A stretch of 64,000 bases of DNA from assembly GCF_003966695.1 (NCBI RefSeq), contig NZ_AP018828.1, positions 402,001 to 466,000 on the forward strand. Reading direction: 5' to 3'. The stretch is from Asticcacaulis excentricus (GTDB lineage Bacteria; Pseudomonadota; Alphaproteobacteria; Caulobacterales; Caulobacteraceae). The notes beneath the pieces are model-generated. The model saw nothing but the letters and a program-made list of their open reading frames with translations, did no database searches and was not told where the DNA came from. A program made the position numbers and the translations under genes. The stretch's first letter is position 1; the number at the start of each line of letters is the position of its first letter. This document shows positions 12,020-30,587 of this stretch, in pieces.

Positions 12020-12028
12020 ATCATTCCT

Positions 12029-12132
12029 AGAGAGGGATGATTTTAAATGGAAGCATCATCCTGCTCTAAATTTCTGTTTTGTCGGGATATTTTTGTCGAA
12101 AACCGCTCACACTTTTCGACACATCGCTCTAA
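12029..12132. repeat. Intergenic repeat, copy 2 of 3
   Basis: Same two-hairpin element as 4996-5098: unit A has GGGATGA...TCATCCT, then CTCTAAATTTCTGTTTTGTCG, then unit B GGATATTTTTGTCGAAAA...CTTTTCGACACATCGC. It starts about 10 bp after the stop codon of the upstream GH2 gene, as expected for an element placed in 3' intergenic space. Confidence 0.85.
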
Positions 12133-12355
12133 AATAATCTGACAGGCATCACTCTGCGCAAATCCCTCTGAATAAAGGGGGCGATGTATTTTGCGGTGAG
12201 TTGTGGCCGTTCTCATTTGCGACAGTGTGCGAACGTCTGAGGCGATGCGCGTCTGATCGACCGCCGCCCTCACATGGGCCAACTGCGCCGGTAGGCAAAA
12301 TCGCAGCTTGATCGGCATCGAATTTGATTGAAATTGATCGTTTGGAACGCTAAAA

Positions 12356-12364
12356 GGTCTTACC
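12356..12364. promoter_or_regulatory. GntR/FadR-type operator candidate before the GH2-GH115 pair
   Basis: GGTCTTACC fits the N-GT-N3-AC-N core bound by FadR-subfamily GntR regulators. A degenerate second copy (AGGTCTGATAAGG) follows at 12377-12389. The site lies 46 bp before the ATG at 12411, close to where a promoter is expected. A FadR-type regulator is encoded at 38743-39438, but a link is only a guess. The rest of 12133-12355 holds no gene that can be supported. Confidence 0.35.
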
Positions 12365-12410
12365 AATAAAATTATTAGGTCTGATAAGGATTGCAGGAGG
12401 GAGAGTGGTC

Positions 12411-16916: not shown

Positions 16917-18128
16917 CTATATCCGTACATTCTCAAGTGCGCCGCCCCAGGTGGTGCGCCAGCGGCGCTTGATCAGGCTCAGGCCGCCAAAGGCGATCAG
17001 GGCCAGCGCCGCAAATCCGATCAGCCCGGGCTGGTAGGAGCCCAGCGCCTGTTTCGACAGGCCCAGACTGGTGGCCAGATAGAAGCCGCCGATGCCGCCA
17101 AACATGCCGACAAGGCCGGTCATCACGCCGATTTCGGCGCGAAAGCGCTGCGGCACCAGTTGGAACACGGCGCCATTGGCCATGCCCAGCGCCCCCATAC
17201 CCACGATCAGGAATAACAGGGCGGTGAATTCGGTCGGCAGGCGGAAGCTGATGATGATGAGGGCAATGGCCGCGACCACGTACATGATCGACAAGGTGCG
17301 AATGCCGCCGATACGGTCGGCAACGCTGCCCCCCACCGGCCGGAAAAGCGAACCGGCAAAGACGCAAGCCGCGGTAAAAAAGCCGGCCTTGACCGGATCG
17401 AGGCCGTATTCAGCGTTAAAATAGATGTTGAGGGAGGAACTGAGGCCCACAAAGCCGCCAAAGGACACACCGTAGAACAACAGGAACCACCACGCATCCT
17501 GTTGTTTGAGGACGCTAAAATACTGATCCAGACGCTTGGGCGCGGGCGGATTGGGCGCATCCTTGGCAAACAGCATGTAAAAGATAAAGGCGGCGATCAG
17601 CGGCAGGGCCGCCAGACCGAAGACGGTGCTCCAGCCAAAGGCCTTGGCCAGCGACGGCGCAAACAGCGAGGCAAACACCGTGCCGGAATTGCCCGCACCG
17701 GCAATGCCCAGAGCCACGCCCTGATACTGCGGCGGATACCAGCGGGATGCCAAGGGCAGGGCGACCGCAAACGACGCCCCGGCGACGCCCAGCACGCCGG
17801 CCAGCATCAGCACACCGGCATAGGAGTCGATTTTCAGCACAAAGGCCGCCAGCAGCCCGCCAATGACGATGGCCTGAGCGATTGCGCCCGTCGTCTTGGG
17901 GCCAATGCGATCGACCATCACCCCCGCCACCAGCCGCAGCAAGGCCCCGGTCAGGATGGGTACGGCGACCATGAAGCCCTTTTGCGCCGGGGTGAGGCCC
18001 AGATCGCTGGCGATCTGCACGCCCAGCGCCCCCAGCAGCACCCAGACCATGAAGCTCATGTCGAAATAGAGAAAGGCCGAGACCAGCGTAGGTGCGTGTC
18101 CGGCTTTGAGGAAGTCTTTGGAAATCAT
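16917..18128 (-). CDS. narK: Nitrate/nitrite transporter of the major facilitator superfamily (NarK/NasA type)
   Basis: The 403-residue inner-membrane protein has about 12 predicted helices. It carries NarK/NasA-family features: FDMSFMVWVLLGALG in helix 1, VPILTGALLRLVAGVMVDRIGPK between helices 2 and 3, GVAGASFAVALPLASRWYP, and GNSGTVFA with the nitrate-signature-like glycine pattern of helix 5. The second-half counterpart is SLFRPVGGSVADRIGG, followed by GMANGAVFQLVPQRF. It imports nitrate, perhaps with nitrite export. It is transcribed away from nasT, and its leader carries an ANTAR-type double hairpin, so it belongs with the nitrate assimilation genes. It duplicates the role of the ABC nitrate importer encoded at 26145-29179. 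Confidence 0.9.
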   Translation of the reverse strand: MISKDFLKAGHAPTLVSAFLYFDMSFMVWVLLGALGVQIASDLGLTPAQKGFMVAVPILTGALLRLVAGVMVDRIGPKTTGAIAQAIVIGGLLAAFVLKIDSYAGVLMLAGVLGVAGASFAVALPLASRWYPPQYQGVALGIAGAGNSGTVFASLFAPSLAKAFGWSTVFGLAALPLIAAFIFYMLFAKDAPNPPAPKRLDQYFSVLKQQDAWWFLLFYGVSFGGFVGLSSSLNIYFNAEYGLDPVKAGFFTAACVFAGSLFRPVGGSVADRIGGIRTLSIMYVVAAIALIIISFRLPTEFTALLFLIVGMGALGMANGAVFQLVPQRFRAEIGVMTGLVGMFGGIGGFYLATSLGLSKQALGSYQPGLIGFAALALIAFGGLSLIKRRWRTTWGGALENVRI

Positions 18129-18207
18129 GGATAAACCTGCGGCGTCGATCCGGGCAGCGCAACGGCCACTTCGGCAATGCGGAGACTTTTTCGGGTGGAG
18201 ACGACGG

Positions 18208-18243
18208 TCCGGTTCGTTCCGGAGGCTGACCGCCGTTGGCCAG
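18208..18243 (-). promoter_or_regulatory. ANTAR-type double hairpin in the narK leader
   Basis: Read on the minus strand, hairpin P1 (18243-18226) has stem CTGGCC/GGTCAG and six-base loop AACGGC. Hairpin P2 (18223-18208) has stem TCCGG/CCGGA and loop AACGAA. Two bases separate them. Both loops have A at position 1 and G at position 4, the signature recognised by ANTAR-domain proteins such as NasT. P2 ends 79 nt before the narK ATG. Unlike the other two leaders, no T-run terminator is visible in between. Confidence 0.65.
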
Positions 18244-18432
18244 TTCCCAAATCGCTACAAAAGGCTAAGTCACTCAGGCAGACCCTGTCAAGGCGCGATT
18301 TTGCGTTGCGGGAAAGGTCAAAATTTTTCGCTTGCGCCCGGCGGCATGTTGGCATTAGCCGTAAGAGCAGAATCGACGCCCCGCAGCGCGGTGGGGCGTA
18401 CCCGATACCCTTTCCCTGCCGGATAATTCCCC

Positions 18433-19026
18433 GTGAATGTGCTGATCATCGATCCCGACGACGCGCGCGCGGCCCTTGTGGCCGAAGGCATGCGGCTGGA
18501 CGACAGCCTGCATGGCGCAACCCTGCACATCTGGCCGCGCTTTGAGCTGGCCCGCCTCAGCGAGATCAACCCGGACATGGTCATCATCGCCTGCGAAAGC
18601 CCGGATCGCGATACGCTGGATGCGCTGCAGATCGCCCATGAGCACGCGCCGCGCCCTGTGGCCATGTTTGTGGACCGTTCGGATGCCAATACGACGGCGC
18701 AGGCGCTGGAGGCCGGGGTGGCGGCCTATGTGGTGGACGGCTATGCGCCCAATCGCGTGGCCTCCATCCTGTCGGTGGCGGCGCATCGTTTCAACCTGAT
18801 GCAGACCCTGCGCCATGACCTGTCGAAGGCGCGGGCCGATCTGGCGGCGCGCAAGACCATTGACCGCGCCAAGGGGGTGCTAATGACCTCACGCGGCATC
18901 GGCGAAGAGGAGGCCTATCGCCTGATGCGTAAGCACGCCATGGACTCAGGCCGCCCCATCGCGGCCATCGCCGAGGACATCCTCGCCATTTCCGACCTGC
19001 TGAAGAAGAGGGACGACGGATGTTGA
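18433..19026 (+). CDS. nasT: NasT, ANTAR-domain antiterminator of nitrate assimilation
   Basis: The 197-residue protein joins an N-terminal receiver-like domain to a C-terminal ANTAR RNA-binding domain (residues ~135-190: LAARKTIDRAKGVLMTSRGIGEEEAYRLMRKHAMDSGRPI). NasT binds paired hairpins in nitrate-gene leaders and prevents termination; without nitrate it is held inactive by NasS. The receiver looks degenerate: where the phospho-accepting Asp is expected, the sequence is MVIIACESPDRD with Ala53, in line with control by protein sequestration. The start is a GTG at 18433. Its stop overlaps the nasS start by 7 bases. Matching ANTAR hairpins precede narK, nirB and the porin-nrt operon in this window. 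Confidence 0.9.
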   Translation: MNVLIIDPDDARAALVAEGMRLDDSLHGATLHIWPRFELARLSEINPDMVIIACESPDRDTLDALQIAHEHAPRPVAMFVDRSDANTTAQALEAGVAAYVVDGYAPNRVASILSVAAHRFNLMQTLRHDLSKARADLAARKTIDRAKGVLMTSRGIGEEEAYRLMRKHAMDSGRPIAAIAEDILAISDLLKKRDDGC

Positions 19027-20164
19027 GTGTACGTATCGGTTTCAGCCCGCTCAACGACGCCGCTCTGGTCGTGCTGGCCGAAGCGCTGGGCTTTTACGGC
19101 GCCGAAGGGCTGGATGTTTCGCTCAGCCGCGAAGCCAATTGGTCGAATATTCGCGACAAGCTGTCCTATGGCCTGCTGGATGGCGCGCACGTGCTGGCGA
19201 CGTTGCCGCTGGCGCGTGGACTGGGGCTTGGGCCTGCCATCGGGCACATCATCGCGCCCATGGCGCTGGGGGCCAATGGCAATTCGGTGGTCATTTCCTC
19301 CAAGCTGAAAGAGGTGTTTGAAGGGTTGGGGGCCTCGACCCTGCTGGAGTCGGCGCGCGCCCTGCGGCTGGTGATCCAGCACCGGCGCGCCGTTAGCGAA
19401 GGCAAGGTGACCCTGGCCATTCCGTTCAACTATTCGCCGCACCATTTCGTGCTGCGTCACTGGCTGGCGGCCGGGGGATCGACCCCGACCGGCAGGTGCA
19501 GTGGGTGGTTCTGCCGCCGTCGCGCATGGCCGACCACCTGCGCGATGGGGTGATTGACGGCTTCTGCTCTGGCTCCCCCTGGCCGCAGATGGCGGAGTTG
19601 AACGGGAATGGGGTTGTGCTGTTCTCCGACCCCGCCTTCTGGACGCTGAAGCCCGAAAAGGTGCTGGCTCTGCGAGGTGTCTGGGCCGAAGAGCACCCGG
19701 AGGCCGCCGTGGCCCTGACGCGCGCCCTGTTGCGGGCCGGGCAGTGGGCGACGGAGCCCTCTCATGCCGAGGAACTGGCCCTGATCCTTAGCCGTGAGGC
19801 CTATGTGCGCGCGCCGCTGGAGGCTATTCAGGCGGCGCTGGCGCCCGGCGGGGCGGGTCTGATCCTTGATCCGCAGACGGCGACCTTCCCGTGGATCAGC
19901 CACGCCAAATGGTTCATCGGGCAGTTTGTGCGCTGGGGCCTGACGGAGGGGAGCCACGATTTCGACGCCATTGCGCGGCGGGTCTATCGACCGGACCTCT
20001 GGCGGCAGGCGGCGGCCCCGCTCAGCCTGTCCCTGCCTGTCGAGGATGAGAAGGACGAGGGTGGGGCCGAAGCGCCGTGGACGCTGCCGGCCGCGCCCGC
20101 CCCGGTCCTGATGCCGCCCAATACCCTGTTCGACGGGGGGGTGTTCCGGGTCAGACGCTCATAG
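19020..20164 (+). pseudogene. nasS: NasS, nitrate-sensing partner of NasT, with a one-base frameshift
   Basis: Two overlapping frames together give one NasS/NrtA-like protein of about 381 residues. The first (19020-19553) begins MLSVRIGFSPLNDAALVVLAEALGFY and is good to RHWLAAGG. After that it turns into nonsense (STPTGRCSGWFCRRR) and stops. The second resumes in another frame with QWVVLPPSRMADHLRDGVIDGFCSGSPWPQMAE and runs to 20164. Adding one G to the GGGGG tract at 19473-19477 restores a continuous reading (AAGG, then IDPDRQVQWVVLPP). So either this strain lost NasS, or the base is a sequencing error in a homopolymer. NasS binds nitrate or nitrite and keeps NasT inactive without them. The gene overlaps the nasT end. 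Confidence 0.85.
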
Positions 20165-20246
20165 GTTTTCGTGGCGGAATCCCAATCTCGCAGGCGCAAA
20201 AATCGCCGATTGACAGGGCGCGCGTCCTGTGGCCCAATAAAGCTAC

Positions 20247-20295
20247 GGATCAAGGTCGATCCACGACATTTGCTCAGAAGCGCCAACGGCGGCGC
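20247..20295 (+). promoter_or_regulatory. ANTAR-type double hairpin in the nirB leader
   Basis: P1 (20247-20262) has stem GGATC/GATCC and six-base loop AAGGTC. P2 (20280-20295) has stem GCGCC/GGCGC and loop AACGGC. Both loops have A at position 1 and G at position 4. The linker is 17 nt, longer than in the other two leaders. A strong terminator begins 27 nt downstream, so NasT binding here would allow transcription into nirB-nirD-nasA. Confidence 0.72.
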
Positions 20296-20322
20296 GTTTG
20301 AGTCTTCATCGGACAAAGATGT

Positions 20323-20371
20323 CCCGCACTCCTGAAACGCTTTGGCGTCAAAGGGGTGCGGGATTTTTTTT
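20323..20371 (+). terminator. Leader terminator (attenuator) ahead of nirB
   Basis: CCCGCACTCC (20323-20332) pairs with GGGGTGCGGG (20353-20362). Inside it ACGC pairs with GCGT, and the stem is followed by A and eight T. It lies before the nirB ribosome site (GGAG at 20397-20400), so unless antitermination occurs it would end transcription before the operon. A longer nirB start inside this stem is excluded for that reason. Confidence 0.88.
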
Positions 20372-20407
20372 GGCTCAATTCCCACGCGCTCGCATTGGAG
20401 CAATCCC

Positions 20408-22894
20408 ATGGCCTTTCATTCTGAGCCTGTGGCCAAACCCCGGATCGTCGTCATTGGCGCGGGCATGGCCGGTGGCCGTATCGTCGAAGAGATTCTCAAA
20501 CGCGATGATCGTATGTTCGACATTTCGATCATCGGTGCCGAGTCTTGCGCCACCTACGACCGTATCCAGCTCTCGCCGGTGCTGGCGGGCGAAAAGACGT
20601 TTGAACAGATCGTCACCCATTCGCAGGACTGGTATGACCTCAATGGCGTGAAGACGCATTTCGGCTGTTGGGTGCAGGGTATTGACCGCGATGCCCGGCG
20701 GGTGGTGCTGCACGACGGTCAGACGATCGCTTACGACTGTCTGATCCTCGCTACCGGTTCTGACCCGATCCGCCTGCCTTTGCCCGGTGCGGATTTGTCG
20801 GGCGTCGTGGCCTTCCGCGACCTGCACGATGTCGATCTGATGCAGAAGGCGGCGGAGGCAGGCGGCGAGGCAGTGGTCATCGGCGGCGGACTTTTGGGGT
20901 TGGAGGCCGCCTACGGTCTGGCCAAACGCGGCATGAAGGCCACGGTGATCCATCTGGTCGATGTGTTGATGGAGCGGCAACTCGATGAGGCCGCCGGACG
21001 GTTGCTGGAAAAGGCGCTGGCCGAACGCGGTGTGTCAGCCGTGCTGAACGCGCAGTCTGAGGCCATACTGGGCGAAACCCACGTAGAAGGGCTGAAACTC
21101 AAGGACGGGCGCGTGATTCCGGCCTCGCTTCTGGTCATGGCGGTGGGTATCCGCCCGCATGTGGAACCGGCGAAGTCGGCCGGTCTGACTGTCGAGCGCG
21201 GCATCGTCGTCGATGACCAGATGCGTACCAGCGACCCCTTCATCTTTGCGGTCGGCGAATGCGTGCAGCACCGCGGGCAGTGCTACGGCCTTGTGGCGCC
21301 CATCTGGGACATGTGCCGCACGCTGGCCGATGTGCTGACCGGTAAGAACCCGCAGGCGGCCTATTTGGGCTCGGAACTGGCGACGCGGCTTAAGGTCTCC
21401 GGCGTCGATCTCTATTCGGCGGGTCAGTTCAATGGTGGCGACGGCTGCGAAGACATCGTGTTCCGTGACCCGGCGCGCGGCGTCTATAAGCGCATCGTCA
21501 TCAAGAATGACCAGCTTGTGGGCGCGGTGCTGTTTGGTGAGGCGGCGGATGGCGGCTGGTACTTTGACCTTATCAAAAAGGGCGAAAGCATTGGTGAGAT
21601 TCGTGACACCCTGATCTTCGGTCAGGCGGTGACGGAGGCGCTGGCTGGCGTGGACCCTAACGCCGCCGTTGCGGCATGGCCCGACGACACGGAAGTGTGC
21701 GGCTGCAACGGCGTGAGCAAGGGTGCGGTGGTCGCGGCCATCAGCGGCGGCGCGGACACGCTGGATAAGGTACGCGGTTGCACCAAGGCGTCGGCGTCGT
21801 GCGGCTCGTGCACCGGCATTGTCGAGCAGTTGCTGAAGGTCACTCTGGGCGATGCCTTCAAGGCGCAGACCGGCCCCAAGCCGATGTGCAAATGCACGCA
21901 TCATGGCCACGCCGTCGTGCGTCAGGCGATTGTCGAGCAAGGACTGAAGACCATCCCCGACGTCATGCAGGCGCTGAAATGGGAGACGCCGGATGGCTGT
22001 TCCTCGTGCCGCCCGGCGCTGAACTACTACCTCCTGTGTGCGTGGCCGCGTGAGTATCAGGATGATCCGCGCTCGCGCTTCGTCAATGAGCGTAACCACG
22101 CCAATATTCAAAAAGATGGCACCTATTCCGTCGTGCCGCGCATGTGGGGCGGCGTCACCTCGGCCAGGGAGTTGCGCGCCATTGCCGATGTCGTCGATAA
22201 GTTCAACCTGCCCATGGTCAAGGTCACGGGCGGCCAGCGTCTCGATATTTTCGGCGTCAAAAAAGAGGACCTGCCCGCCGTCTGGGCCGATCTCAACGCC
22301 GCTGGCATGGTGTCGGGCCACGCCTATGCCAAGGCGCTGCGCACGGTGAAAACTTGTGTCGGGTCGGAATGGTGCCGCTTCGGCACGCAGGACTCGACGG
22401 GGCTGGGTATCCGGCTGGAGCAGGACACCTGGGGCTCATGGATGCCGCACAAGTTCAAGATGGCGGTCTCAGGCTGCCCGCGCAACTGCGCCGAGGCGAC
22501 GATCAAGGACTTCGGCGTCATCTGCGTTGATTCCGGCTATGAGCTGCACGTCGGTGGCAATGGCGGTATCCACCTGCGCGGCACGGACCTGTTGTGCAAG
22601 GTGGCGACCGAGGCCGAGGCCCGCGAATATTCTATGGCCTTCGTGCAATTCTACCGCGAAGACGCCTGGTATCTGGAGCGCACCGCGCCGTGGATCGAGC
22701 GTGTGGGCCTTGAGGCGATCAAGGCCAAACTGTTCGATGAGGAGACCCGAAAGGCCCTGATGGCGCGTTTTCTGGAGTCACAGGCCGTGTTTCAGGTCGA
22801 TCCGTGGGCGGAGCACGCCCCCCAGTCCGAACCGGCCAAGGTGTTTTCACCGCTGGCGGACCTGCGCAGCGAAAAGAAGGAGATGGCGCGATGA
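20408..22894 (+). CDS. nirB: Assimilatory nitrite reductase [NAD(P)H], large subunit
   Basis: The 828-residue cytoplasmic enzyme reduces nitrite to ammonium. The order is an FAD/NAD(P)H reductase (RIVVIGAGMAGGR near residue 14, and VVIGGGLLGLEAAYGLAKRG as the second dinucleotide fold), then a BFD-type [2Fe-2S] domain (CGCNGVSKGAVV...CTKASASCGSC). The siroheme/4Fe-4S region follows, with TCVGSEWC (CX5C) and SGCPRNCAEA (CX3C) as cluster ligands. All ligands are present. ATG 20408 has GGAG seven bases upstream; longer starts fall inside the attenuator. Its stop overlaps nirD (ATGA). The leader shows NasT-type control, and the reductase gene nasA follows nirD, giving a complete path from nitrate to ammonium. 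Confidence 0.95.
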   Translation: MAFHSEPVAKPRIVVIGAGMAGGRIVEEILKRDDRMFDISIIGAESCATYDRIQLSPVLAGEKTFEQIVTHSQDWYDLNGVKTHFGCWVQGIDRDARRVVLHDGQTIAYDCLILATGSDPIRLPLPGADLSGVVAFRDLHDVDLMQKAAEAGGEAVVIGGGLLGLEAAYGLAKRGMKATVIHLVDVLMERQLDEAAGRLLEKALAERGVSAVLNAQSEAILGETHVEGLKLKDGRVIPASLLVMAVGIRPHVEPAKSAGLTVERGIVVDDQMRTSDPFIFAVGECVQHRGQCYGLVAPIWDMCRTLADVLTGKNPQAAYLGSELATRLKVSGVDLYSAGQFNGGDGCEDIVFRDPARGVYKRIVIKNDQLVGAVLFGEAADGGWYFDLIKKGESIGEIRDTLIFGQAVTEALAGVDPNAAVAAWPDDTEVCGCNGVSKGAVVAAISGGADTLDKVRGCTKASASCGSCTGIVEQLLKVTLGDAFKAQTGPKPMCKCTHHGHAVVRQAIVEQGLKTIPDVMQALKWETPDGCSSCRPALNYYLLCAWPREYQDDPRSRFVNERNHANIQKDGTYSVVPRMWGGVTSARELRAIADVVDKFNLPMVKVTGGQRLDIFGVKKEDLPAVWADLNAAGMVSGHAYAKALRTVKTCVGSEWCRFGTQDSTGLGIRLEQDTWGSWMPHKFKMAVSGCPRNCAEATIKDFGVICVDSGYELHVGGNGGIHLRGTDLLCKVATEAEAREYSMAFVQFYREDAWYLERTAPWIERVGLEAIKAKLFDEETRKALMARFLESQAVFQVDPWAEHAPQSEPAKVFSPLADLRSEKKEMAR

Positions 22895-23238
22895 GCGGCG
22901 ATCTGGCTTTGCAAACCCCGCCTTTGACGTGGCTGGACGTCGGGGCGGCGGCGGATGTGCCGTATCAGGGGGCCCGGCGGGTCGAGACGGACAAGGGGGC
23001 CATCGCCGTCTTTCGTACCGTGGATAATGACTATTACGCCGTGATGGACAAATGCCCGCACAAGGGCGGTCCTCTGTCCGAAGGTATCGTGCACGGCCGT
23101 CATATTGCCTGTCCGTTGCACAACTGGTCGTTCAGCCTCGAAACGGGCGAGGCCGTCGGGGTAGATGCGGGGAAGGGCTGTACGCCCACCGTGCCGCTGA
23201 AGATTGAAAACGCCCGGATTTTTCTCGGACTGCGTTGA
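22891..23238 (+). CDS. nirD: Assimilatory nitrite reductase small subunit, Rieske-type
   Basis: The 115-residue protein starts at an ATG overlapping the nirB stop (ATGA), which indicates coupled translation. It has a Rieske fold with both iron-binding pairs intact: KCPHKGGPL (Cys-X-His) and CPLHNWSFSLETGEAVG (Cys-X2-His). The small subunit of E. coli NirBD lacks these ligands; here a real [2Fe-2S] cluster is likely. It would pass electrons within the NirBD complex. A longer frame from 22804 exists but would overlap nirB by about 90 bases and is not needed. Confidence 0.9.
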   Translation: MSGDLALQTPPLTWLDVGAAADVPYQGARRVETDKGAIAVFRTVDNDYYAVMDKCPHKGGPLSEGIVHGRHIACPLHNWSFSLETGEAVGVDAGKGCTPTVPLKIENARIFLGLR

Positions 23239-23273
23239 ACCCCTTTCCCTAAAAAGAGAGGGGGAGAGGTACA

Positions 23274-25934
23274 ATGACCACCACCCAATCCACCACCTGT
23301 CCCTATTGCGGCGTCGGTTGCGGCGTCGAAGCGACGCTTGCTGGTCGTCAGATGACCGTGCGGGGCGATGGGGCGCATCCGGCCAATCAGGGCCGGCTCT
23401 GTTCCAAGGGCACGGCGCTCGGCAAGACCTTCGGGCTGGAGGGGAGGTTGCTCAGCCCGCGCCGTCGCACGCCACAGGGTTTTGTCGATACGACGTGGGA
23501 CGCGGCGCTTAACGAGGTGGCCGGGCGTTTCCGTGACATCATCGCCGAACACGGGCCGGATGCGGTGGCTTTTTATGTCTCCGGTCAGTTGCTGACCGAG
23601 GACTATTACGCGGTCAACAAGCTGGCCAAGGGCTATATCGGTACGGCCAATATCGACACCAATTCGCGCCTGTGCATGAGTTCGGCGGTGGCCGCCCACA
23701 AACTGACCTTCGGGGCCGATCTGGTGCCGGGGGTCTATGATGATCTGACTGAGGCGGACCTGCTGGTCTTTAGCGGCCACAATGCCGCCTGGACCCACCC
23801 GGTTCTTTTTCGCCGCATTGAGGCGCGTCAGGATCAGTTCCGCGTCTGCATCGACCCGCGCCGCACCGATACGGCGAAGGCGGCCAACCTGCATCTGATG
23901 ATTCGCCCTCAGACGGATGTCCGCCTGTGGAATGGCCTGTGCGCGCATCTGATCGCGCGTGATGCGCTCGATCATGACTTTGTGGATCAGCATACGCAGG
24001 GCTTTTCGCGCCTGATGGCCGCGCTCGCCGCCGACGATCAGAGCCTTGAGGCCGTGGCCGCGGATTGCGGTATCTCGCCGGCCGATTTGAAGACTTTTTA
24101 TGATGCCTTTCTGTACACGGATAAGGTGGTGAGCCTGTTCTCCATGGGCTCCAACCAGTCGTCGCAGGGCGTGCACAAGGGGCTCAGCCTGATCAATGCC
24201 CACCTCCTGTCGGGTAAGATCGGCAAGCCGGGGGCCGCGCCGTTTTCGATCACCGGCCAACCCAATGCCATGGGCGGGCGTGAAGTGGGCGGGCTGGCCA
24301 ATATGCTGGCCGCGCATATGGATTTCGATGACTCGTCGAAAGCCCTTGTGCAACGCTACTGGGGCTCACCGACCCTTGCGCCCAAACCCGGCCTGAAAGC
24401 CGTCGATATGTTTGAGGCGGTGCGCACGGGCAAGATCAAGGCTATCTGGATCATGGCCACCAACCCCATGGTGTCCATGCCCGACGCCAACCGCATCCAC
24501 GAAGCCCTGTCGACGTGCGAACTGGTGGTCGTGTCGGACGTCATGGCACGCACCGATACGATGGACATGGCCCATATCCAGCTCCCGGCAGCCGCCTGGG
24601 GCGAAAAGGACGGCACGGTGACCAATTCCGAGCGCGTCATCTCAAGGCAACGCTCCCTGACCGAGCTGCCGGGGCAGGTGCGCCCGGACTGGGCCATCAT
24701 TGCCGAGGTGGCGCGGCGGATGAACCCGGATTGGGCGCAGGCCTTTGACTGGGCCGGGCCGGATGAGGTGTTTGCCGAGCACGCCGGGCTGACGGCCTTT
24801 GAAAATAACGGGCAGCGTTTTCTCGATCTGGGCGGCCTCTGTGGCATGTCAAAGGCCCAATACGACGCGCTGATGCCGGTGCGCTGGCCCTTTCCGGCCG
24901 ATGGCCTGCCGGCGACGCGCCTGTTCGCCGATGGGCGTTTCAACACGCCGAATGGTCGGGCGCGGCTGGTGCCGCCGGTGGTGCGCGGCCCGGCTCAGCC
25001 GCCGACGCCGGACTCTCCGTTCAGTTTCAATTCGTGCCGCGTGCGTGACCACTGGCACACGATGACGCGCACGGCGCTGGCGCCGGAACTGAACCGCCAT
25101 ATCACCGAGCCGACGCTGGACATCCACCCGAAGGATGCGCGGCGGCTGGGGATAGGTGACGGACGGCTGGCGGTTGTGACGACAGCGCAGGGCGAGGCCA
25201 TCTATAAGGCGCGCGTGACCGACGATGTGCGCGTCGGCAACCTGCACGCCCCGATGCACTGGACACAGCAGTTCGCGCCCTTTGGTCGCTCAAACCCGCT
25301 GATCAATCCGGCGGTCGATCCCGTGTCCGGGCAGCCGGAGTTCAAGCACACCCCGGCGCAGGTGCGGGCCTTCGGCGAGGTCTGGCACGGGTTTCTGATG
25401 GTGCCGCGCGATTGCGACGGCGCGCCGCCTGTGTTTCAGCCGGATACGGTCTGGCGTCGCACCGCCTATGCCCACGCCGATGGCTATGAGATGGCGGGTA
25501 CGGGCACGCCGGACAGCGCGGACTTTGACGCCACGGCGACGCTTGAGGACCCGGCCACCGGCATCCGGCGTCAGGTGCGCGTCGAAAACGGCCGTTTGAC
25601 GCGGGTGTTCTTCATAGCACCGATCCACAAAAAACTGCCGCCACGCGACTGGCTGCTCGAGTGCTTCGGAGAGCCGGAACTGAGCGCGCCACAGCGTGCG
25701 GCGTTGTTGATCGGCCGGATGCCGGGTGTGTCGGACAGAGGCCGCATAATCTGCGCCTGCAACAGTGTGGGCGAAAACGCCATCCTAGCCTGCATAGACG
25801 ATGGCGCGGCTACGGTCGAAGCGATCGGCGACGCGACGCGCGCCGGCACGGCCTGCGGCTCGTGCAAGGGCGAACTGAAACAATGCCTGTTGCGCCACGC
25901 TGAGGGCTTAAAAAAGGAAACGGTGCAAGCCTGA
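23274..25934 (+). CDS. nasA: Assimilatory nitrate reductase catalytic subunit (molybdopterin)
   Basis: The 886-residue cytoplasmic enzyme reduces nitrate to nitrite. The N-terminus binds a [4Fe-4S] cluster through CPYCGVGCGV...GRLCSKG. The central molybdopterin oxidoreductase domain holds TANIDTNSRLCMSSAVAAHK with the Cys expected to ligand molybdenum, FSMGSNQSSQGVHKG and GREVGGLANMLAAHM. The C-terminal molybdopterin-dinucleotide domain (HWHTMTRTA) is followed by a BFD-like [2Fe-2S] module (CACNSVGENA...GTACGSCKGEL), as in NasA/NasC types that take electrons from a separate NAD(P)H protein. No signal peptide is present, which fits an assimilatory role. It lies 35 bp after nirD with ribosome site GGGGGAGAGG, so it is the last gene of nirB-nirD-nasA. 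Confidence 0.94.
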   Translation: MTTTQSTTCPYCGVGCGVEATLAGRQMTVRGDGAHPANQGRLCSKGTALGKTFGLEGRLLSPRRRTPQGFVDTTWDAALNEVAGRFRDIIAEHGPDAVAFYVSGQLLTEDYYAVNKLAKGYIGTANIDTNSRLCMSSAVAAHKLTFGADLVPGVYDDLTEADLLVFSGHNAAWTHPVLFRRIEARQDQFRVCIDPRRTDTAKAANLHLMIRPQTDVRLWNGLCAHLIARDALDHDFVDQHTQGFSRLMAALAADDQSLEAVAADCGISPADLKTFYDAFLYTDKVVSLFSMGSNQSSQGVHKGLSLINAHLLSGKIGKPGAAPFSITGQPNAMGGREVGGLANMLAAHMDFDDSSKALVQRYWGSPTLAPKPGLKAVDMFEAVRTGKIKAIWIMATNPMVSMPDANRIHEALSTCELVVVSDVMARTDTMDMAHIQLPAAAWGEKDGTVTNSERVISRQRSLTELPGQVRPDWAIIAEVARRMNPDWAQAFDWAGPDEVFAEHAGLTAFENNGQRFLDLGGLCGMSKAQYDALMPVRWPFPADGLPATRLFADGRFNTPNGRARLVPPVVRGPAQPPTPDSPFSFNSCRVRDHWHTMTRTALAPELNRHITEPTLDIHPKDARRLGIGDGRLAVVTTAQGEAIYKARVTDDVRVGNLHAPMHWTQQFAPFGRSNPLINPAVDPVSGQPEFKHTPAQVRAFGEVWHGFLMVPRDCDGAPPVFQPDTVWRRTAYAHADGYEMAGTGTPDSADFDATATLEDPATGIRRQVRVENGRLTRVFFIAPIHKKLPPRDWLLECFGEPELSAPQRAALLIGRMPGVSDRGRIICACNSVGENAILACIDDGAATVEAIGDATRAGTACGSCKGELKQCLLRHAEGLKKETVQA

Positions 25935-26054
25935 TACCAAGGGTCATTGAAAATGACTCTTGGTATTCCATTCGAGGATGTCTCATGTCACTGACACATA
26001 TGAGAAATCCTCGTTTCTTCAACGGCCGGATGCGGTCAGCATCTTCGGCCGTTG
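25934..26054. repeat. Three tandem inverted repeats after nasA
   Basis: ATACCAAGGGTCATT-GAA-AATGACTCTTGGTAT (25934-25966) begins in the nasA stop codon. CGAGGA...TCTCAT / ATGAGA...TCCTCG follows at about 25973-26013. CAACGGCCG/CGGCCGTTG lies at about 26018-26053. None has its own T-run. They resemble composite intergenic palindromes more than simple terminators. Confidence 0.7.
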
Positions 26055-26075
26055 GTATGAGACAGGCCCAAACGC

Positions 26076-26115
26076 AAAAAAAACGCCGCCCGATCTTTGC
26101 GGGCGGCGTTTTTTT
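26076..26115. terminator. Bidirectional terminator between nasA and nrtD
   Basis: A run of eight A, then CGCCGCCCG (26084-26092) pairing with CGGGCGGCG (26100-26108), then seven T. It works on both strands and serves the convergent nirB-nirD-nasA and porin-nrt operons. Confidence 0.92.
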
Positions 26116-26144
26116 CATGGACGATTGTCTCAGGGCTGAGTGTT

Positions 26145-26954
26145 TCAGGCCGGTTCGGCCAGTGGGATGGGTGCGTGATCGTGGGCTTCGAGGAAGCTGA
26201 CGATGCGACGGCGGCATTCGACAAACTGCGCATCCTGCATCACCACCTTACGGTCGCGCGGGCGCGGCGTCTTCACGTCCACGATCTCCCCGATGCGCGC
26301 CTTCGGGCCATTGGTCATCATCACCACGCGATCCGCCAGTAGAACGGCTTCATCCACATCATGTGTGATCATCAGCACGGTTGAGCGGATGCGTTCGTGC
26401 AGTTCCATCACCGTATCCTGAAGGTGGGCGCGGGTGAGGGCGTCGAGCGCGCCAAAGGGCTCATCCAGCAGCAATACCTTTGGCTCCATAGCCAGGGCAC
26501 GGGCGATGCCGACGCGCTGCTTCATGCCGCCTGAGATTTCGCCGGGACGTTTATCCTTGGCGTGAGTCATCTTGACCAGTTCCAGATTGTGCAGCGTGCG
26601 GTCGTGGAGCTGTTTCAGGTTTTCCCTGGCACCGTAGAGCTTGGCGACGGCCAGACGCACGTTCTCATAGACGGTCATCCACGGCAAAAGCGAATGGTTC
26701 TGAAACACTACGGCGCGTTCGGGGCCGGGGCCTTTGATCTCTTTATTGTCGAGCAGGGCGGCCCCCAGCGTCACGGGCACAAGGCCCGCGACCACGTTCA
26801 GCAGGGTGGACTTGCCGCAACCGGAATGGCCGATGATCGACAGGAATTCGCCCTTATTGACGCTGAGCGAGACGTTGTCGAGCACCTGCGAGATGACGCC
26901 ATCGCGCTCGAAATCGACATAGATGTTTTCAAGGGAAAGAAGCGGTTTGGACAT
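26145..26954 (-). CDS. nrtD: Nitrate ABC transporter ATP-binding protein
   Basis: The 269-residue ATPase energises nitrate uptake with the NrtB permease. Walker A is GHSGCGKST, the signature is [16 protein letters not shown], Walker B is [12 protein letters not shown], and the switch His is in ITHDVDEAV. This form belongs to the nitrate/sulfonate/taurine importer group (NrtD, SsuB, TauB); nitrate is chosen from context. The start at 26954 has AAAGG upstream and lies 11 bases after the permease stop. The open frame continues further upstream in this register, but that part overlaps the permease gene and is not coding. Confidence 0.9.
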
Positions 26955-26965
26955 GAGGTAACCTT

Positions 26966-27874
26966 TTAATCCGCAGTGGTGCCGCGCGAGACGTACTGAC
27001 CCACAAGGGCCACCAGACGGTCGAGCACAAAGCCGACCAGACCGACCCAGACGAGGGCCACGATGATGTCGGACATGCGCGACGAGTTGTACTGATCCCA
27101 GATGAAGAAGCCGATGCCGACGCCGCCCAGCAGCATTTCGGACGCCACAATGGCCAGCCAACTCATACCGACCCCGATGCGCAGGCCTGTGAAAATGTGC
27201 GGCGTGGCGGCGGGCAGCATGATCTTGAAGAAGTATTCGGCGGGCGTCAGGCGTAACACCTTGGCGACATTGACATAGTCCTGCGGGATATTGCGCACGC
27301 CGACCATGGTGTTGATCACGATGGGCCAGATGGAGGTGATAAAGATGACGAACAGGGCCGACGGCTGGGCTTCGCGCAGGGCGGCCAGTGAGATAGGCAG
27401 CCAGGCCAGCGGCGGCACGGTGCGCAGGACCTGAATGATCGGATCGGTCCCCTTGCGCGCCCAATCGACCGTGCCGAGGAAGGCGCCCAGAAGAACACCG
27501 CACACGGCGGCCAGTCCAAAGCCGATACCTACGCGCGACAGGGAGGTCAGGACGTGCCAGAACAGGCCCTTGTCCACGCCGCCCCGGTCATAGAAGGGAT
27601 CAAAGATCAGCTCCTGCGCTTCCATCAGGACCATGGAAGGCGAGGGCAGACCCCCCGGAAAGGCGGTGCCCAGCGCTTCCCACATCAGGAGCAAGGCGCT
27701 CACCGTGAGCAAAGGCATCAGGTAGTTCCCGGCCTTGTCAGCCAGCTTTCGCCGTCTGGAGGCCGCTATCTGTTTGGCCTGCGCCGCCGCCAGAAGGATC
27801 TGGTTATGTTCGGCGACCGGGTCTGCGGAGACATCAGTCTGAGGGGAGGTCATTTTGTGAACTTCAAAGGGCAT
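26966..27874 (-). CDS. nrtB: Nitrate ABC transporter permease
   Basis: The 302-residue inner-membrane protein has about six helices. Its binding-protein-dependent transport signature lies at VRNIPQDYVNVAKVLRLTPAEYFFKIMLPAATPHIFTGLRIGVGMSW, where the EAA-like loop contacts the ATPase. An unusually long polar N-terminus (~45 residues) precedes the first helix. ATG 27874 was chosen because GAGG lies 7 bases upstream; an alternative is Met at 27853. It follows nrtA after a perfect hairpin at 27889-27912, which may lower its expression relative to the binding protein. Confidence 0.9.
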   Translation of the reverse strand: MPFEVHKMTSPQTDVSADPVAEHNQILLAAAQAKQIAASRRRKLADKAGNYLMPLLTVSALLLMWEALGTAFPGGLPSPSMVLMEAQELIFDPFYDRGGVDKGLFWHVLTSLSRVGIGFGLAAVCGVLLGAFLGTVDWARKGTDPIIQVLRTVPPLAWLPISLAALREAQPSALFVIFITSIWPIVINTMVGVRNIPQDYVNVAKVLRLTPAEYFFKIMLPAATPHIFTGLRIGVGMSWLAIVASEMLLGGVGIGFFIWDQYNSSRMSDIIVALVWVGLVGFVLDRLVALVGQYVSRGTTAD

Positions 27875-27888
27875 GGAAACCTCAATAT

Positions 27889-27912
27889 CCCTCTCCCCTG
27901 ACGGGGAGAGGG
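27889..27912. repeat. Perfect hairpin between nrtA and nrtB
   Basis: CCCTCTCCCC, loop TGAC, GGGGAGAGGG: a 10-bp stem without a T-run. It sits in the only sizeable gap inside the porin-nrt operon. It could protect the upstream nrtA mRNA end or partly stop transcription, a common way to make more binding protein than permease. Confidence 0.7.
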
Positions 27913-27928
27913 TTGGGAGGGGCTTAAA

Positions 27929-29179
27929 TCAGGCCAGCTTCTTGACGGGCTGGCTGGCGAGGTAGGCATTCGGGTTGGTCCAGTCGAAGGTCTTGCCATC
28001 GAAGAAGCGCTCGACACCGCGGGAATCTGCCGGGGCCGGGATGCCATACTGTTTGGCCACTTCGCGCCACAGGTCGGAGCGGTTGACCTTGTTGACCAGC
28101 GCCTTGGTATCCACGTCGTTGTCGATAATGCCCCAGCGCTTGTTTTCGGTGACGAACCAGGTGTCGTGCGACTTGAACGGGAAGCCGGCATTGTCGGCCC
28201 AGAATTTCATCAGATGCGCTGAACCGGAGACATTACGGCCATCGCCGTAATTGATCTTGCCCTGAAGGCGCGGCAGGATGTCGTTGATCGGGACGTTGAT
28301 ATACTGACGCCCGGCGGTGATGGCGCACATGGCGGGACGGTTCTTGTCGCACCATTGCTGGGCTTCCATGACCGCCGCGATCAGGCCCTTGGCGGCATTC
28401 GGGTACTTATCGACCCAGTCGGCACGCATCCCCAGCGCCTTTTCCGGATGGTTCATCCAGATTTCGGAGGTGGTGGTGGCGGTATAGCCGATCTTTTGAT
28501 TGACCAACTGACCGTTCCACGGCTCACCGACGCAGAAGACGTCCTGCGTCCCGGCCTTCATATTGGCCACCATCTGCGGCGGCGGGATGACGATGGTGGA
28601 GACATCCGTATCCGGGTTGATCCCGGCGGCCGCCAGCCAGTAACGCACCCAAAGATCATGCGTACCGCCGCGATAGGTCATGGCCACCTTGGCCAGATTG
28701 CCGGCGGCCTTCATCTGGGCAAACTTGGCCTTGGCACCGGCGGCGTTCAGCCCGACCTGCACGTTTTTCAGATCGTTGCCGACGCTGATACCCTGACCAT
28801 TGGTGTTTAGCCGCGCCAGAATATACATCGGTGTTTTGCGCGCCCCGACGCCGAGCGTGAACTGATAGGGCATGGGGCTGAGGATATGCGCCCCGTCGAT
28901 GCCGCCGCCCTGTGAGCCCAGCACGATATTGTCGCGCGTGGCCCCCCATGAGGCCTGTTTCAGCACCTCGACATTGGGCAGGCCGTATTTGGCAAACAGG
29001 CCCTTCTCTTTGGCGATGATGAGGGGGGAGGCATCGGTCAGGGCAATAAAGCCCAGCTTGGCACCGGAAACCTCAGGCCCCTTACCGGCGGCAAAGGCCC
29101 CTGAGGGGAAAAGCCCTTTAGCGGCGGCGACGGTGGCGGCGGCCCCGATCAGGGCCTGACGGCGGGAAAAGGTGGTCAT
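27929..29179 (-). CDS. nrtA: Nitrate ABC transporter substrate-binding protein (NrtA/CmpA family)
   Basis: The 416-residue periplasmic protein binds nitrate for the NrtBD importer. A Tat signal is clear (FSRRQALIGAAATVAAAKGLFPSGAFAA). The mature part has family features: KLGFIALTDASPLIIAKEKGLFAKYGL, SWGATRDNIVLG, GGIDGAHILSPMPY, GEPWNGQLV and HPEKALGMRADW. Met at 29179 was chosen because the Tat signal starts there and AGGGAC lies upstream; the frame extends 31 codons further but overlaps the porin gene. NasS-type sensors evolved from the same family, and the broken nasS here shows related segments. It follows the porin by 13 bases. Confidence 0.92.
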   Translation of the reverse strand: MTTFSRRQALIGAAATVAAAKGLFPSGAFAAGKGPEVSGAKLGFIALTDASPLIIAKEKGLFAKYGLPNVEVLKQASWGATRDNIVLGSQGGGIDGAHILSPMPYQFTLGVGARKTPMYILARLNTNGQGISVGNDLKNVQVGLNAAGAKAKFAQMKAAGNLAKVAMTYRGGTHDLWVRYWLAAAGINPDTDVSTIVIPPPQMVANMKAGTQDVFCVGEPWNGQLVNQKIGYTATTTSEIWMNHPEKALGMRADWVDKYPNAAKGLIAAVMEAQQWCDKNRPAMCAITAGRQYINVPINDILPRLQGKINYGDGRNVSGSAHLMKFWADNAGFPFKSHDTWFVTENKRWGIIDNDVDTKALVNKVNRSDLWREVAKQYGIPAPADSRGVERFFDGKTFDWTNPNAYLASQPVKKLA

Positions 29180-29192
29180 ATCAGTCGGTCCC

Positions 29193-30446
29193 TTAAAGTT
29201 TGTATTCGAAGCCGACCCACACCTTGGTGCGCGAGGCGGGCATGAGGGTGTTGGCGCGCTCAAAGTCGGCATATTTCAGCAGCAGCGACAGGTTCTTGGT
29301 CAGGCCAGAGGCAAACTGCGCGTCAAACTCCGTGCCGATCGACTGGCTGAGGCGATCTGTCTCAAAATCGTGGTAGGCGAGCGTCAGGGTCGGGTTCTTG
29401 ATCAGCGGGAAGGACGGATGGGTGTAGCCCGCCACCGTCAGGGTGTAGCTGAGGTTCTTGAACCCGTTGGCCATGGTCTTGTTGCCATTGAAGGCCAGCG
29501 CATCGGACCAGCCATTAAAGGCGTGCGCCGTAGCCAGCGGCGTAATAAAGCCGCGCGTGCCGTCGCCTTCAAAGGTCTCGTAACCAACCTTGAAGGTGTA
29601 CATGTCCCAAGTCACCGCCCCGTCGATATTGGAAGCGGACAGCTCGAAATCGGCCGGGTTATAGCCATAGTCCGTCTGCTTGGCATAATAGCCGGAATAG
29701 GCCAGCTTGAAGGATGACACCCAGGCCGAACCTGACGCCTTGAGACCGATGGTATTGGTCGAGTTCGCCTTGGCATTCTCAAAATCGAGCGCGTAATCAA
29801 AAGCCTGAATCTTCAGGGCTTCATTGATCGGCAGGGTGACATTCAACAGGTGGCTGTCGGAATCCCAGTCGGCGCTTTCACCAAGGATACGGTTGACCTG
29901 AAACACATAGGCGTAGGTGACGGCCAGCTTGCCCACCGTGGTATCGACGCGCAAGGCATCGAAGGTCTGTTCGTCCTGACGCCAGCCGATATTGCCGATG
30001 AAGCGTGCATCATCGAGGAGGAGGCGCTGACGACCGGCGGTGACGGTGGTGAAGCTTGAGGGCGTCCACACCACCTGCGCGCGGTTCAGTTCGGTCACTG
30101 TAGGATCAGGAACGGTCGGATATTGCGTCTTGCCGTTGGTCGTCGAGTTATAGTCGTCATCCAGAGCGCGGACATCGTCGAATTCCACGAGGAATTTCAG
30201 GTTCTTCCAGTCCGCCGACTGAAAGCCGATGCGATTGCGCAGGGTCAGGGCTGACCCCTTTTTCAGCCCCGCCTGATCAACGCCCTCGTAGCGCAGACGG
30301 CTTTCCAGCAGGGGCTTACCCATGGCCAGCGCCTCGCCAAACGTCTCCTGAGCGAAAGCGGGGGCATACACCCCGCTTAAAAATGTTGCGCCGCACAAAA
30401 TTAAAGGCGCGCTTTTCCGACGCAGCTTGAGATGGGCCACGGTCAT
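29193..30446 (-). CDS. Outer-membrane porin of the alginate-export (AlgE-like) family in a nitrate operon
   Basis: The ~417-residue protein has a signal peptide (HLKLRRKSAPLILCGATFLSGVYAPAFAQ). The remainder consists of alternating beta-strand segments (SRLRYEGVDQ, LTLRNRIGFQSADWKNLKFLVEFDDVRAL, TVTAGRQRLLLDDARFIGNIGWRQDEQTFDALRV). This matches the alginate_exp porin family and ends in WVGFEYKL. It is the first gene of the operon, so a role as outer-membrane channel for nitrate is inferred from position; the name of the family does not mean alginate here. ATG 30446 is preferred, with AGGGG very close; a TTG at 30464 is the alternative. The leader carries an ANTAR double hairpin and a terminator. 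Confidence 0.8.
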   Translation of the reverse strand: MTVAHLKLRRKSAPLILCGATFLSGVYAPAFAQETFGEALAMGKPLLESRLRYEGVDQAGLKKGSALTLRNRIGFQSADWKNLKFLVEFDDVRALDDDYNSTTNGKTQYPTVPDPTVTELNRAQVVWTPSSFTTVTAGRQRLLLDDARFIGNIGWRQDEQTFDALRVDTTVGKLAVTYAYVFQVNRILGESADWDSDSHLLNVTLPINEALKIQAFDYALDFENAKANSTNTIGLKASGSAWVSSFKLAYSGYYAKQTDYGYNPADFELSASNIDGAVTWDMYTFKVGYETFEGDGTRGFITPLATAHAFNGWSDALAFNGNKTMANGFKNLSYTLTVAGYTHPSFPLIKNPTLTLAYHDFETDRLSQSIGTEFDAQFASGLTKNLSLLLKYADFERANTLMPASRTKVWVGFEYKL

Positions 30447-30462
30447 ATCCCCTGAAAAGAGC

Positions 30463-30522
30463 AAAAAAAAACGCCCCAGACTAAACCGCAGGTTCCCCTT
30501 GTGCGGTAATGGTCTGAGACGT
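30463..30522 (-). terminator. Leader terminator (attenuator) ahead of the porin-nrt operon
   Basis: On the minus strand ACGTCTCAGAC (30522-30512) pairs with GTCTGGGGCGT (30481-30471), 11 bp with three G-U pairs. An inner stem ACCGCA/TGCGGT lies inside, and a run of nine T follows. It ends about 16 nt before the porin ATG, so transcription must read through it to express the operon. Confidence 0.85.
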
Positions 30523-30537
30523 CGTTGTCCGGTGATG

Positions 30538-30587
30538 GGCGAAGCCTTCTATGGCCTCGCCGTGTGTTATCCGCCTTTGGATAACAC
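30538..30587 (-). promoter_or_regulatory. ANTAR-type double hairpin in the porin-nrt leader
   Basis: On the minus strand P1 (30587-30564) has stem GTGTTATCC/GGATAACAC with loop AAAGGC. P2 (30561-30538) has stem GGCGAGGCC/GGCTTCGCC with loop ATAGAA. The linker is 2 nt. Both loops have A1 and G4. The terminator starts 15 nt after P2. This is the best-formed of the three sites in the window. Confidence 0.8.

Follow-up and report, generated by a model that had tools for sequence, protein, structure and literature searches.

The window analysed here is a stretch of 64,000 nucleotides (nt) of Asticcacaulis excentricus DNA, part of contig 2 of a 3.79-Mb genome in three contigs; Asticcacaulis is a genus of the Caulobacteraceae. 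It holds a nitrate-assimilation block in the order narK (minus strand), nasT and nasS (plus), nirB-nirD-nasA (plus), and then nrtD, nrtB, nrtA and an outer-membrane porin gene (all minus). By gene content, both types of nitrate importer, NarK and NrtABD, are present in the block. NasT is an ANTAR protein, and its possible targets are the leaders of three units: nirB-nirD-nasA, porin-nrtABD and narK. An initial annotation had described two tandem hairpins in each of these leaders and proposed that NasT controls all three units, with a two-way choice of nitrate importer that so far reflects gene content. Table 1 lists the leader elements and the genes.

The hairpin pairs have six-base loops with A at position 1 (A1) and G at position 4 (G4). 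All three pairs and all six loops were recovered where they had been reported. We scanned both strands for tandem hairpins with 6-nt loops, A1, G4, stems of at least 4 base pairs (bp) each and at least 10 bp in total, no more than two G-U pairs per stem and a linker of at most 25 nt. The scan of the window returned exactly these three sites, at 20247-20295 (plus), 30538-30587 (minus) and 18208-18243 (minus). Ten first-order Markov sequences of window length gave 0.6 sites on average at this setting. When the required total was 9 bp, four sites were observed and 1.4 expected; at 11 bp, two were observed and 0.2 expected. The raw number of hairpin pairs is by itself modest evidence, and it is leader placement, conservation and covariation that carry weight.

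Printing the leaders of relatives and scanning upstream of their U-runs revealed what the pairwise description had overlooked. The pairs before nirB and porin-nrt exist (H1 and H2), but each of these two leaders carries a third A1/G4 hexaloop hairpin, H3, which lies on the 5' arm of an intrinsic terminator. Both leaders fold far better than shuffled sequences (z-scores in Table 1), whereas the narK leader does not (z +0.88). In nirB and porin-nrt, respectively, the linkers are 17 and 2 nt (H1-H2) and 15 and 7 nt (H2-H3), and the loop-to-loop distances are 33 and 26 nt (H1-H2) and 30 and 26 nt (H2-H3).

Table 1. Leader elements and genes of the nitrate-assimilation block (positions in the window)
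Feature	Positions	Strand	Remarks
nirB H1, loop AAGGTC	20247..20262	+	upstream, putative recruitment hairpin; scan, alignment, covariation
nirB H2, loop AACGGC	20280..20295	+	scan, alignment, covariation
nirB H3, loop AAAGAT	20311..20324	+	putative antiterminator; 3' arm doubles as terminator stem base
nirB leader intrinsic terminator	20321..20371	+	G+C-rich hairpin and 8 T; leader z -6.6
porin-nrt H1, loop AAAGGC	30564..30587	-	9 bp
porin-nrt H2, loop ATAGAA	30538..30561	-	9 bp
porin-nrt H3, loop AACGAC	30517..30530	-	putative antiterminator; overlaps the terminator
porin-nrt leader intrinsic terminator	30463..30523	-	hairpin and 9 T; leader z -7.3
narK hairpin 1, loop AACGGC	18226..18243	-	C:G closing pair
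narK hairpin 2, loop AACGAA	18208..18223	-	G:C closing pair; palindromic; no terminator after it
narK, major facilitator superfamily nitrate/nitrite transporter	16917..18128	-	PF07690; TIGR00886 match under its cut-off
nasT, ANTAR protein	18433..19026	+	sole ANTAR domain found in the genome
nasS, nitrate sensor, NrtA-like (NMT1_2) family	19020..20164	+	adjoins nasT; two frames in the assembly
nirB, nitrite reductase large subunit	20408..22894	+	TIGR02374
nirD-like Rieske protein	22891..23238	+	start judged from sequence
nasA, assimilatory nitrate reductase	23274..25934	+	named from context; NCBIfam nitrate-reductase models under their cut-offs
nrtA, nrtB, nrtD, nitrate ATP-binding cassette importer	26145..29182	-	downstream of the porin gene; nrtB above the TIGR01183 cut-off; nrtA and nrtD assigned by domain and position
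outer-membrane barrel (porin)	29193..30446	-	first gene behind the second leader; PF13372; start at 30446 judged from sequence

The arrangement is conserved among the Asticcacaulis leaders examined. H3 lies on the 5' arm of the terminator in all 36 terminator-type leaders examined (12 nirB, 20 porin and 4 narK, the last from a second clade discussed below). Left out of this set are loci L008 and L009 for nirB and L012 for narK, where the gene comes after another and has no such leader, as well as porin loci L100-L109 (other genera; 37% match in G005), L080 (the window copy) and the Caulobacter loci. Setting aside seven near duplicates gave an alignment of 29 leaders. In it G4 occurs in all 29 for each of H1, H2 and H3 (87 of 87 loops) and A1 in 29, 28 and 27 of them, and loop positions 2, 3, 5 and 6 vary. 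The loop-closing pair is C:G in all 87 hairpins. The 15 pairs that make up H1-H3 are standard in 91.7% of cells. Double-sided changes were counted in 90 cells, against a mean of 30.5 in shuffled controls and no more than 17 when the partners were slid by one to three columns; at least one occurs in 10 of the 15 pairs. H3 varies in its outer pair only (AU in 11 leaders, GC in 10, GU in 7, other in 1). The linkers, 2-20 nt between H1 and H2 and 7-22 nt between H2 and H3, fall within the range of 2-25 nt given for such linkers in PMC8164766. Loop-to-loop distances are 26-36 nt (H1-H2) and 23-37 nt (H2-H3), a pitch that fits a spatial limit between successive binding sites such as that reported for EutV (PMC8934654).

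Do the hexaloops appear when no loop rule is imposed? We took the minimum free energy (MFE) folds of 45 leaders, namely the 36 above and nine narK leaders of the first clade. A1/G4 hexaloops accounted for 93 of their 133 hairpin loops, as against 68 of 4963 in the folds of 2250 dinucleotide-shuffled sequences; two of the 45 leaders show none.

NasT is the likely controller of the nirB and porin-nrt leaders, judging from the genes and leaders that genomes carry. Its C-terminal ANTAR domain (PF03861, E 1.4e-20, residues 132-184 of 197) is the single such domain found in the genome; at the N-terminus, response-regulator matches are weak and under their cut-offs, and Pfam reports ANTAR alone. A search with Rfam, which had been suggested as a check, was run and proved uninformative. 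Rfam 15 gave no match at the three leaders when the whole window was searched at the gathering score, and the 11 matches between 18000 and 31000 at E values up to 10 include none at the three leaders. Models of our own were used instead, and with these the nirB and porin-nrt leaders score strongly and narK at background. Model R1 describes the three-hairpin leader and contains the window's leaders and many others from the genus. R2 is a held-out version built from 21 leaders, the window's two and six close relatives having been taken out of the 29-leader alignment. R3 covers leaders of the H2-H3-terminator form. In the window's own genome R1 finds the two known leaders, with the next match at E 0.26; R2 finds them at E 7.2e-17 and 4.4e-13, the next being 0.56; and R3 again finds the same two, followed by a match at E 0.21. 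In keeping with the earlier proposal of a regulon confined to one block, the R1 and R3 searches yielded no further terminator-type leader in the genome outside the block among the candidates scored (150 of 1777 first-look candidates for R1, 150 of 1488 for R3), although terminator-less two-hairpin sites could escape them.

Across 25 genomes of the genus a leader is present in 22 and an ANTAR protein in 21, and all three genomes that lack leaders also lack an ANTAR match. These three are the informative rows, because many of the other leaders were in the model. In one genome (G020) about 400 kb separate the ANTAR gene from the leaders, and action in trans is therefore expected.

Similar leaders occur outside the genus. 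Among 64 loci from other Alphaproteobacteria, a second group of 18 was picked by an H3 sequence motif, so that its H3 columns are conserved by selection; 13 of the 18 are titled Roseibium or Labrenzia, and the leaders precede nas genes. The three hairpins align, with 98.1% of cells paired (94.1% after shuffling) and 10 cells with double-sided changes (shuffled mean 2.3), H3 being invariant. G4 is found in 17, 18 and 18 of the 18 leaders for H1, H2 and H3. A class-wide search with R1 under stricter filters gave matches at E 0.01 or below in 14 of 240 genomes, the own genome included. The two strong matches outside the genus (E 7.4e-10 and 1.4e-9) each have an ANTAR gene within 2 kb.

For most loci outside Asticcacaulis, three hairpins are not demonstrated. 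In a folding census of the 64 other loci, 32 lacked H3 with a terminator by a strict rule, and constrained MFE folds of the remaining 32 showed one A1/G4 hexaloop in 17, two in 11 and three in 4; these hexaloop figures are undercounts, since an additional A-U pair inside the loop leaves a tetraloop in place of the hexaloop. A second census, based on stems, of 67 loci (L013-L079, of which L015 is Asticcacaulis) gave three hairpins in 12, two in 14 and none in 41, and some of these may be due to chance. Caulobacter loci L013 and L014 have no full array, and by eye an H3-like hairpin stands between nasS and narK.

We consider it highly probable that nirB-nirD-nasA and porin-nrtABD are held by terminators and released by NasT, through three-hairpin leaders in which H3 competes with the base of the terminator. 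In this mechanism, both operons would be kept off by the intrinsic terminator in the leader. The nascent leader would form three consecutive hairpins, each closed by a C:G pair below a hexaloop that has G at position 4 and A, or seldom G, at position 1. Formation of H3 excludes that of the complete terminator, since the part of the terminator stem adjoining the U-run, its base, doubles as the 3' arm of H3; the upper terminator stem can form beside H3, away from the U-run. When nitrate is absent, NasS would hold NasT and the terminator, as the more stable fold, would win. With nitrate, freed NasT would bind H1 or H2 while these emerge from the polymerase. It would then move on to H3, at a loop-to-loop distance of about 30 nt, and keep this hairpin folded until the polymerase clears the U-run. 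Bound protein would tip the balance between H3 and terminator.

The predicted energies are in line with such a balance. Forcing H3 in the full leader costs 7.6 kcal/mol in nirB and 6.5 kcal/mol in porin-nrt, the terminator form being favoured; in nascent RNA ending 14-26 nt past H3 the cost is only about 0.6-0.7 kcal/mol. H3 takes up four of the 13 lower-stem terminator pairs in nirB and seven of the 12 in porin-nrt. A terminator hairpin displaced by H3 would be set back from the U-run and, given the way intrinsic terminators generally work, would presumably no longer terminate.

Several observations weigh against this mechanism or the breadth of its support. When H3 is forced, nine of the 13 lower-stem pairs (nirB) and five of the 12 (porin-nrt) still form, together with the inner stem. 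The MFE structure of the nascent RNA shows nirB H3 as a tetraloop, owing to A-U closure, and H3 is absent from that of the window's porin leader. The three inner H3 pairs are invariant in the 29 leaders. H1 starts and H3 were located with motifs from earlier matches, so that the loop statistics are partly selected, and because of this H2 is the cleanest case of the loop rule (A1 in 28 and G4 in 29 of 29). Position 1 is not always A: it is G in the H3 loops of two second-clade narK leaders (L010:16867-16994 and L011:17155-17280), and in the second group it is G in H1 of nine of the 18 loci and in H2 of five. Such relaxation agrees with the EutV structure, in which A1 makes no specific contact (PMC8934654). 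The strong R1 scores of the window and genus leaders arise by construction. G023, a genus genome in 370 contigs, carries a leader yet gives no ANTAR match, and seven of the 14 genomes matched by R1 class-wide lack an ANTAR match (E 2.8e-5 to 0.0092); for the latter reason weak R1 matches outside the genus are not trusted. Finally, covariation is what suggests a function for H1, and the published ANTAR motif is dual.

The last point raises an alternative, that of a canonical dual motif with a spare. H2 and H3 would act as the published P1 and P2, and H1 would be a 5' stability hairpin or an ornament independent of NasT. Known ANTAR leaders are described as dual, with P2 overlapping the terminator (PMC3369931), and by eye there are two-hexaloop leaders with a similar terminator-overlapping hairpin in other Alphaproteobacteria (L152, L159); because these exist, we identify H3 with the published P2. 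Yet H1 obeys the loop rule (A1 and G4 in 29 of 29, the start being motif-chosen), has the C:G closure and shows double-sided changes in six of its seven pairs, none of which a simple stability hairpin would require. The H1-H2 loop distance, moreover, is held at 26-36 nt despite linkers of 2-20 nt. We regard this alternative as rather unlikely. A far less credible one, very improbable in our judgement, is the version first proposed, in which NasT acts through H1 and H2 and H3 is incidental. Both hairpins do form in the MFE structures of the full nirB and porin leaders; however, neither overlaps the terminator, and binding them alone gives no obvious antitermination, whereas H3 does overlap it and was found in every one of the 36 leaders.

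There is also a wider generalisation, to which we would give slightly less than an even chance. Alphaproteobacterial NasT leaders would be three-station relays. Two hexaloop hairpins, kept at a constrained pitch of some 30 nt, would take up NasT during transcription and deliver it to a third that overlaps the terminator, the number and spacing of the loading hairpins setting the response of each operon. In that case the dual-hairpin rule would be the minimum for an ANTAR target and not its definition, and the first loop base would need only to be a purine.

The narK leader is another matter. Control by NasT, likely for nirB and porin-nrt, is not established for this third unit of the proposed regulon. 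The two narK hairpins end about 80 nt upstream of the start codon. They are kept in all nine leaders of an alignment made from the window and eight relatives in which narK is divergent to nasT (the first clade). Loop 1 has A1 and G4 in nine of nine; loop 2 has G4 in nine and A1 in six, reading GACGAA in L003, L004 and L007. The closing pair is C:G for hairpin 1 and G:C for hairpin 2 in all nine. In vitro selection with NasR pointed to a loop-closing C:G pair (PMC7496416), which the nirB and porin-nrt leaders have and narK hairpin 2 does not. Covariation is slight (one pair), and the inner pairs of hairpin 2 never vary. In none of the nine leaders does the stretch from hairpin 2 to the start codon contain five or more T in a row, the longest run being four. 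Against R1 without filters the window's narK leader scores 8.1 bits (E 0.15), at hairpin 1 only, which is background. In a second clade narK is downstream of transporter genes, and four of the five loci (L008-L011) have a full three-hairpin narK leader with terminator; in the fifth, L012, narK directly follows the porin gene. Leaders L010 and L011, whose H3 loop starts with G, are natural tests of the A1 rule.

Three further features of the first-clade leader were considered. Unmasking of the ribosome site was not adopted as an explanation: with both hairpins forced, the unpaired probability in the window goes from 0.47 to 0.43, and the largest change in Shine-Dalgarno accessibility among the nine leaders is from 0.44 to 0.35, in L001. 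A closing helix round the hairpins (UUGGGGA/UCCCCAA), seen by eye in several relatives, is broken in the window and was likewise not adopted. At 18198-18211 the sequence GGAC-CGUC-GUCU could, by eye, form a 4-bp hairpin with a 4-nt loop that competes with hairpin 2; it is possibly a decayed or vestigial H3.

How, then, might narK be regulated? We see about an even chance that it is under NasT through its own two-hairpin leader and without intrinsic termination, by way of translation, RNA stability or Rho. The hairpins and G4 are kept in all the first-clade leaders, the second clade has the full array at four of five loci, and an overlapping terminator accompanies only about 30% of the published matches in ANTAR-bearing genomes (PMC3369931). 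On the other hand, Shine-Dalgarno accessibility is predicted to change little on hairpin formation, hairpin 2 has G:C closure and invariant inner pairs, and the model score and the fold are those of background. A different view, which we think rather doubtful, is that the palindrome of hairpin 2, CCGGAACGAACCGG, is not an RNA hairpin but a site in the DNA at which a regulator would act between narK and nasT, which are divergent. It is a near-invariant inverted repeat whose inner pairs show no covariation, and a 23-base pattern round it occurs, with up to three mismatches allowed, at one place in the genome; but it stands downstream of a -35-like TTGACA of narK, as seen in the sequence, and adjoins a hairpin with the full loop rule. 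We take the narK leader to be a related but different element for which NasT control is plausible and unproven. Any effect could have either sign, given results from Bradyrhizobium diazoefficiens. There, under denitrifying conditions, loss of nasT raised and did not lower narK, which has predicted NasT hairpins (PMC6759348), although during aerobic assimilation of nitrate a narK-lacZ fusion depended on NasT (PMC4724949).

Other features of the block and its surroundings are of note. PF13379 matches both pieces of nasS, the NrtA-like partner gene adjoining nasT. The frame break is a one-base length difference at a short G run near 19473, and relatives have uninterrupted copies; the interruption may be an assembly error, and if it is real NasT would be without its brake. 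The porin barrel scores 35.1 bits against PF13372 (Alginate_exp, alginate export; cut-off 25.2), and a paralogue with 58% identity lies elsewhere in the genome (C1:725883-727067), with no NasT leader nearby among the model matches listed. Between the convergent nasA and nrtD, at 26030-26115, is a strong inverted repeat with T-runs on both strands, likely a two-way terminator, which surfaced as Rfam leader-family matches below their gathering scores. Upstream of narK, at 8906-16648, are three large consecutive genes that resemble glycoside hydrolases, judged by reading their translations. Among the nasT records, those titled Oceanobacillus (L022) and Mesoflavibacter (L061) are close to alphaproteobacterial nasT and probably come from mislabelled or mixed assemblies.

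Antitermination by ANTAR proteins is already known, and it is the three-hairpin array that seems to be new here. Earlier work has established dual hexaloop antiterminators, their overlap with terminators and the existence of ANTAR regulons in nitrogen metabolism (PMC3369931). We recognised no description of a three-hairpin ANTAR leader in searches of the open-licence literature of PubMed Central, which did not take in the older work on nasF, amiE and Azotobacter. The leaders described here resemble the dual antiterminators of EutV, NasR and AmiR in their A1/G4 hexaloops, their tandem hairpins and the overlap of the last hairpin with an intrinsic terminator; they differ from them, as far as they are characterised in PMC3369931, in having three hairpins and, in some relatives, G at position 1, and in that two operons and an odd narK leader are found in one block. 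The actinobacterial ANTAR RNAs, which act in part on translation, are like the narK leader in having a hairpin pair without an intrinsic terminator, but about 37% of them are reported to overlap the ribosome site or start codon (PMC8164766), whereas the narK hairpins are some 80 nt away.

The closest counterpart in gene content is the NasS-NasT system of Paracoccus denitrificans, where binding of NasT to the nasA leader and control by NasS are established (PMC3795266, PMC5424462). There too nasT-nasS is beside assimilatory genes and leader hairpins precede the first structural gene, and mutation of hairpin I abolishes growth on nitrate (same sources). The 2013 account mentions a 'series of regulatory hairpins', data not shown (PMC3795266), and that of 2017 names HI and HII (PMC5424462). 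In Asticcacaulis, by comparison with what these accounts describe, three hairpins can be defined, and the arrangement extends to an outer-membrane porin-nrt operon; the predicted NasT regulon gains such a porin.

The likeness to the successive-binding model for EutV (PMC8934654) lies in a recruitment hairpin followed by an antitermination hairpin, in the constraint on spacing and in G4 as the key contact, which in the structure stacks on a tyrosine; an additional single hexaloop is mentioned for the EutX RNA in the same source. The difference is that here two upstream hairpins come before the antitermination hairpin. As the leaders described here show, a search for exactly two hairpins may settle on a pair other than the switch. 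The need of ANTAR proteins for two hairpins, given that a dimer holds one, is posed as an open question in PMC8934654. Naturally occurring leaders that have three hairpins at a constrained loop pitch, and that share a genome with a single ANTAR protein, permit a direct test of successive hand-over.

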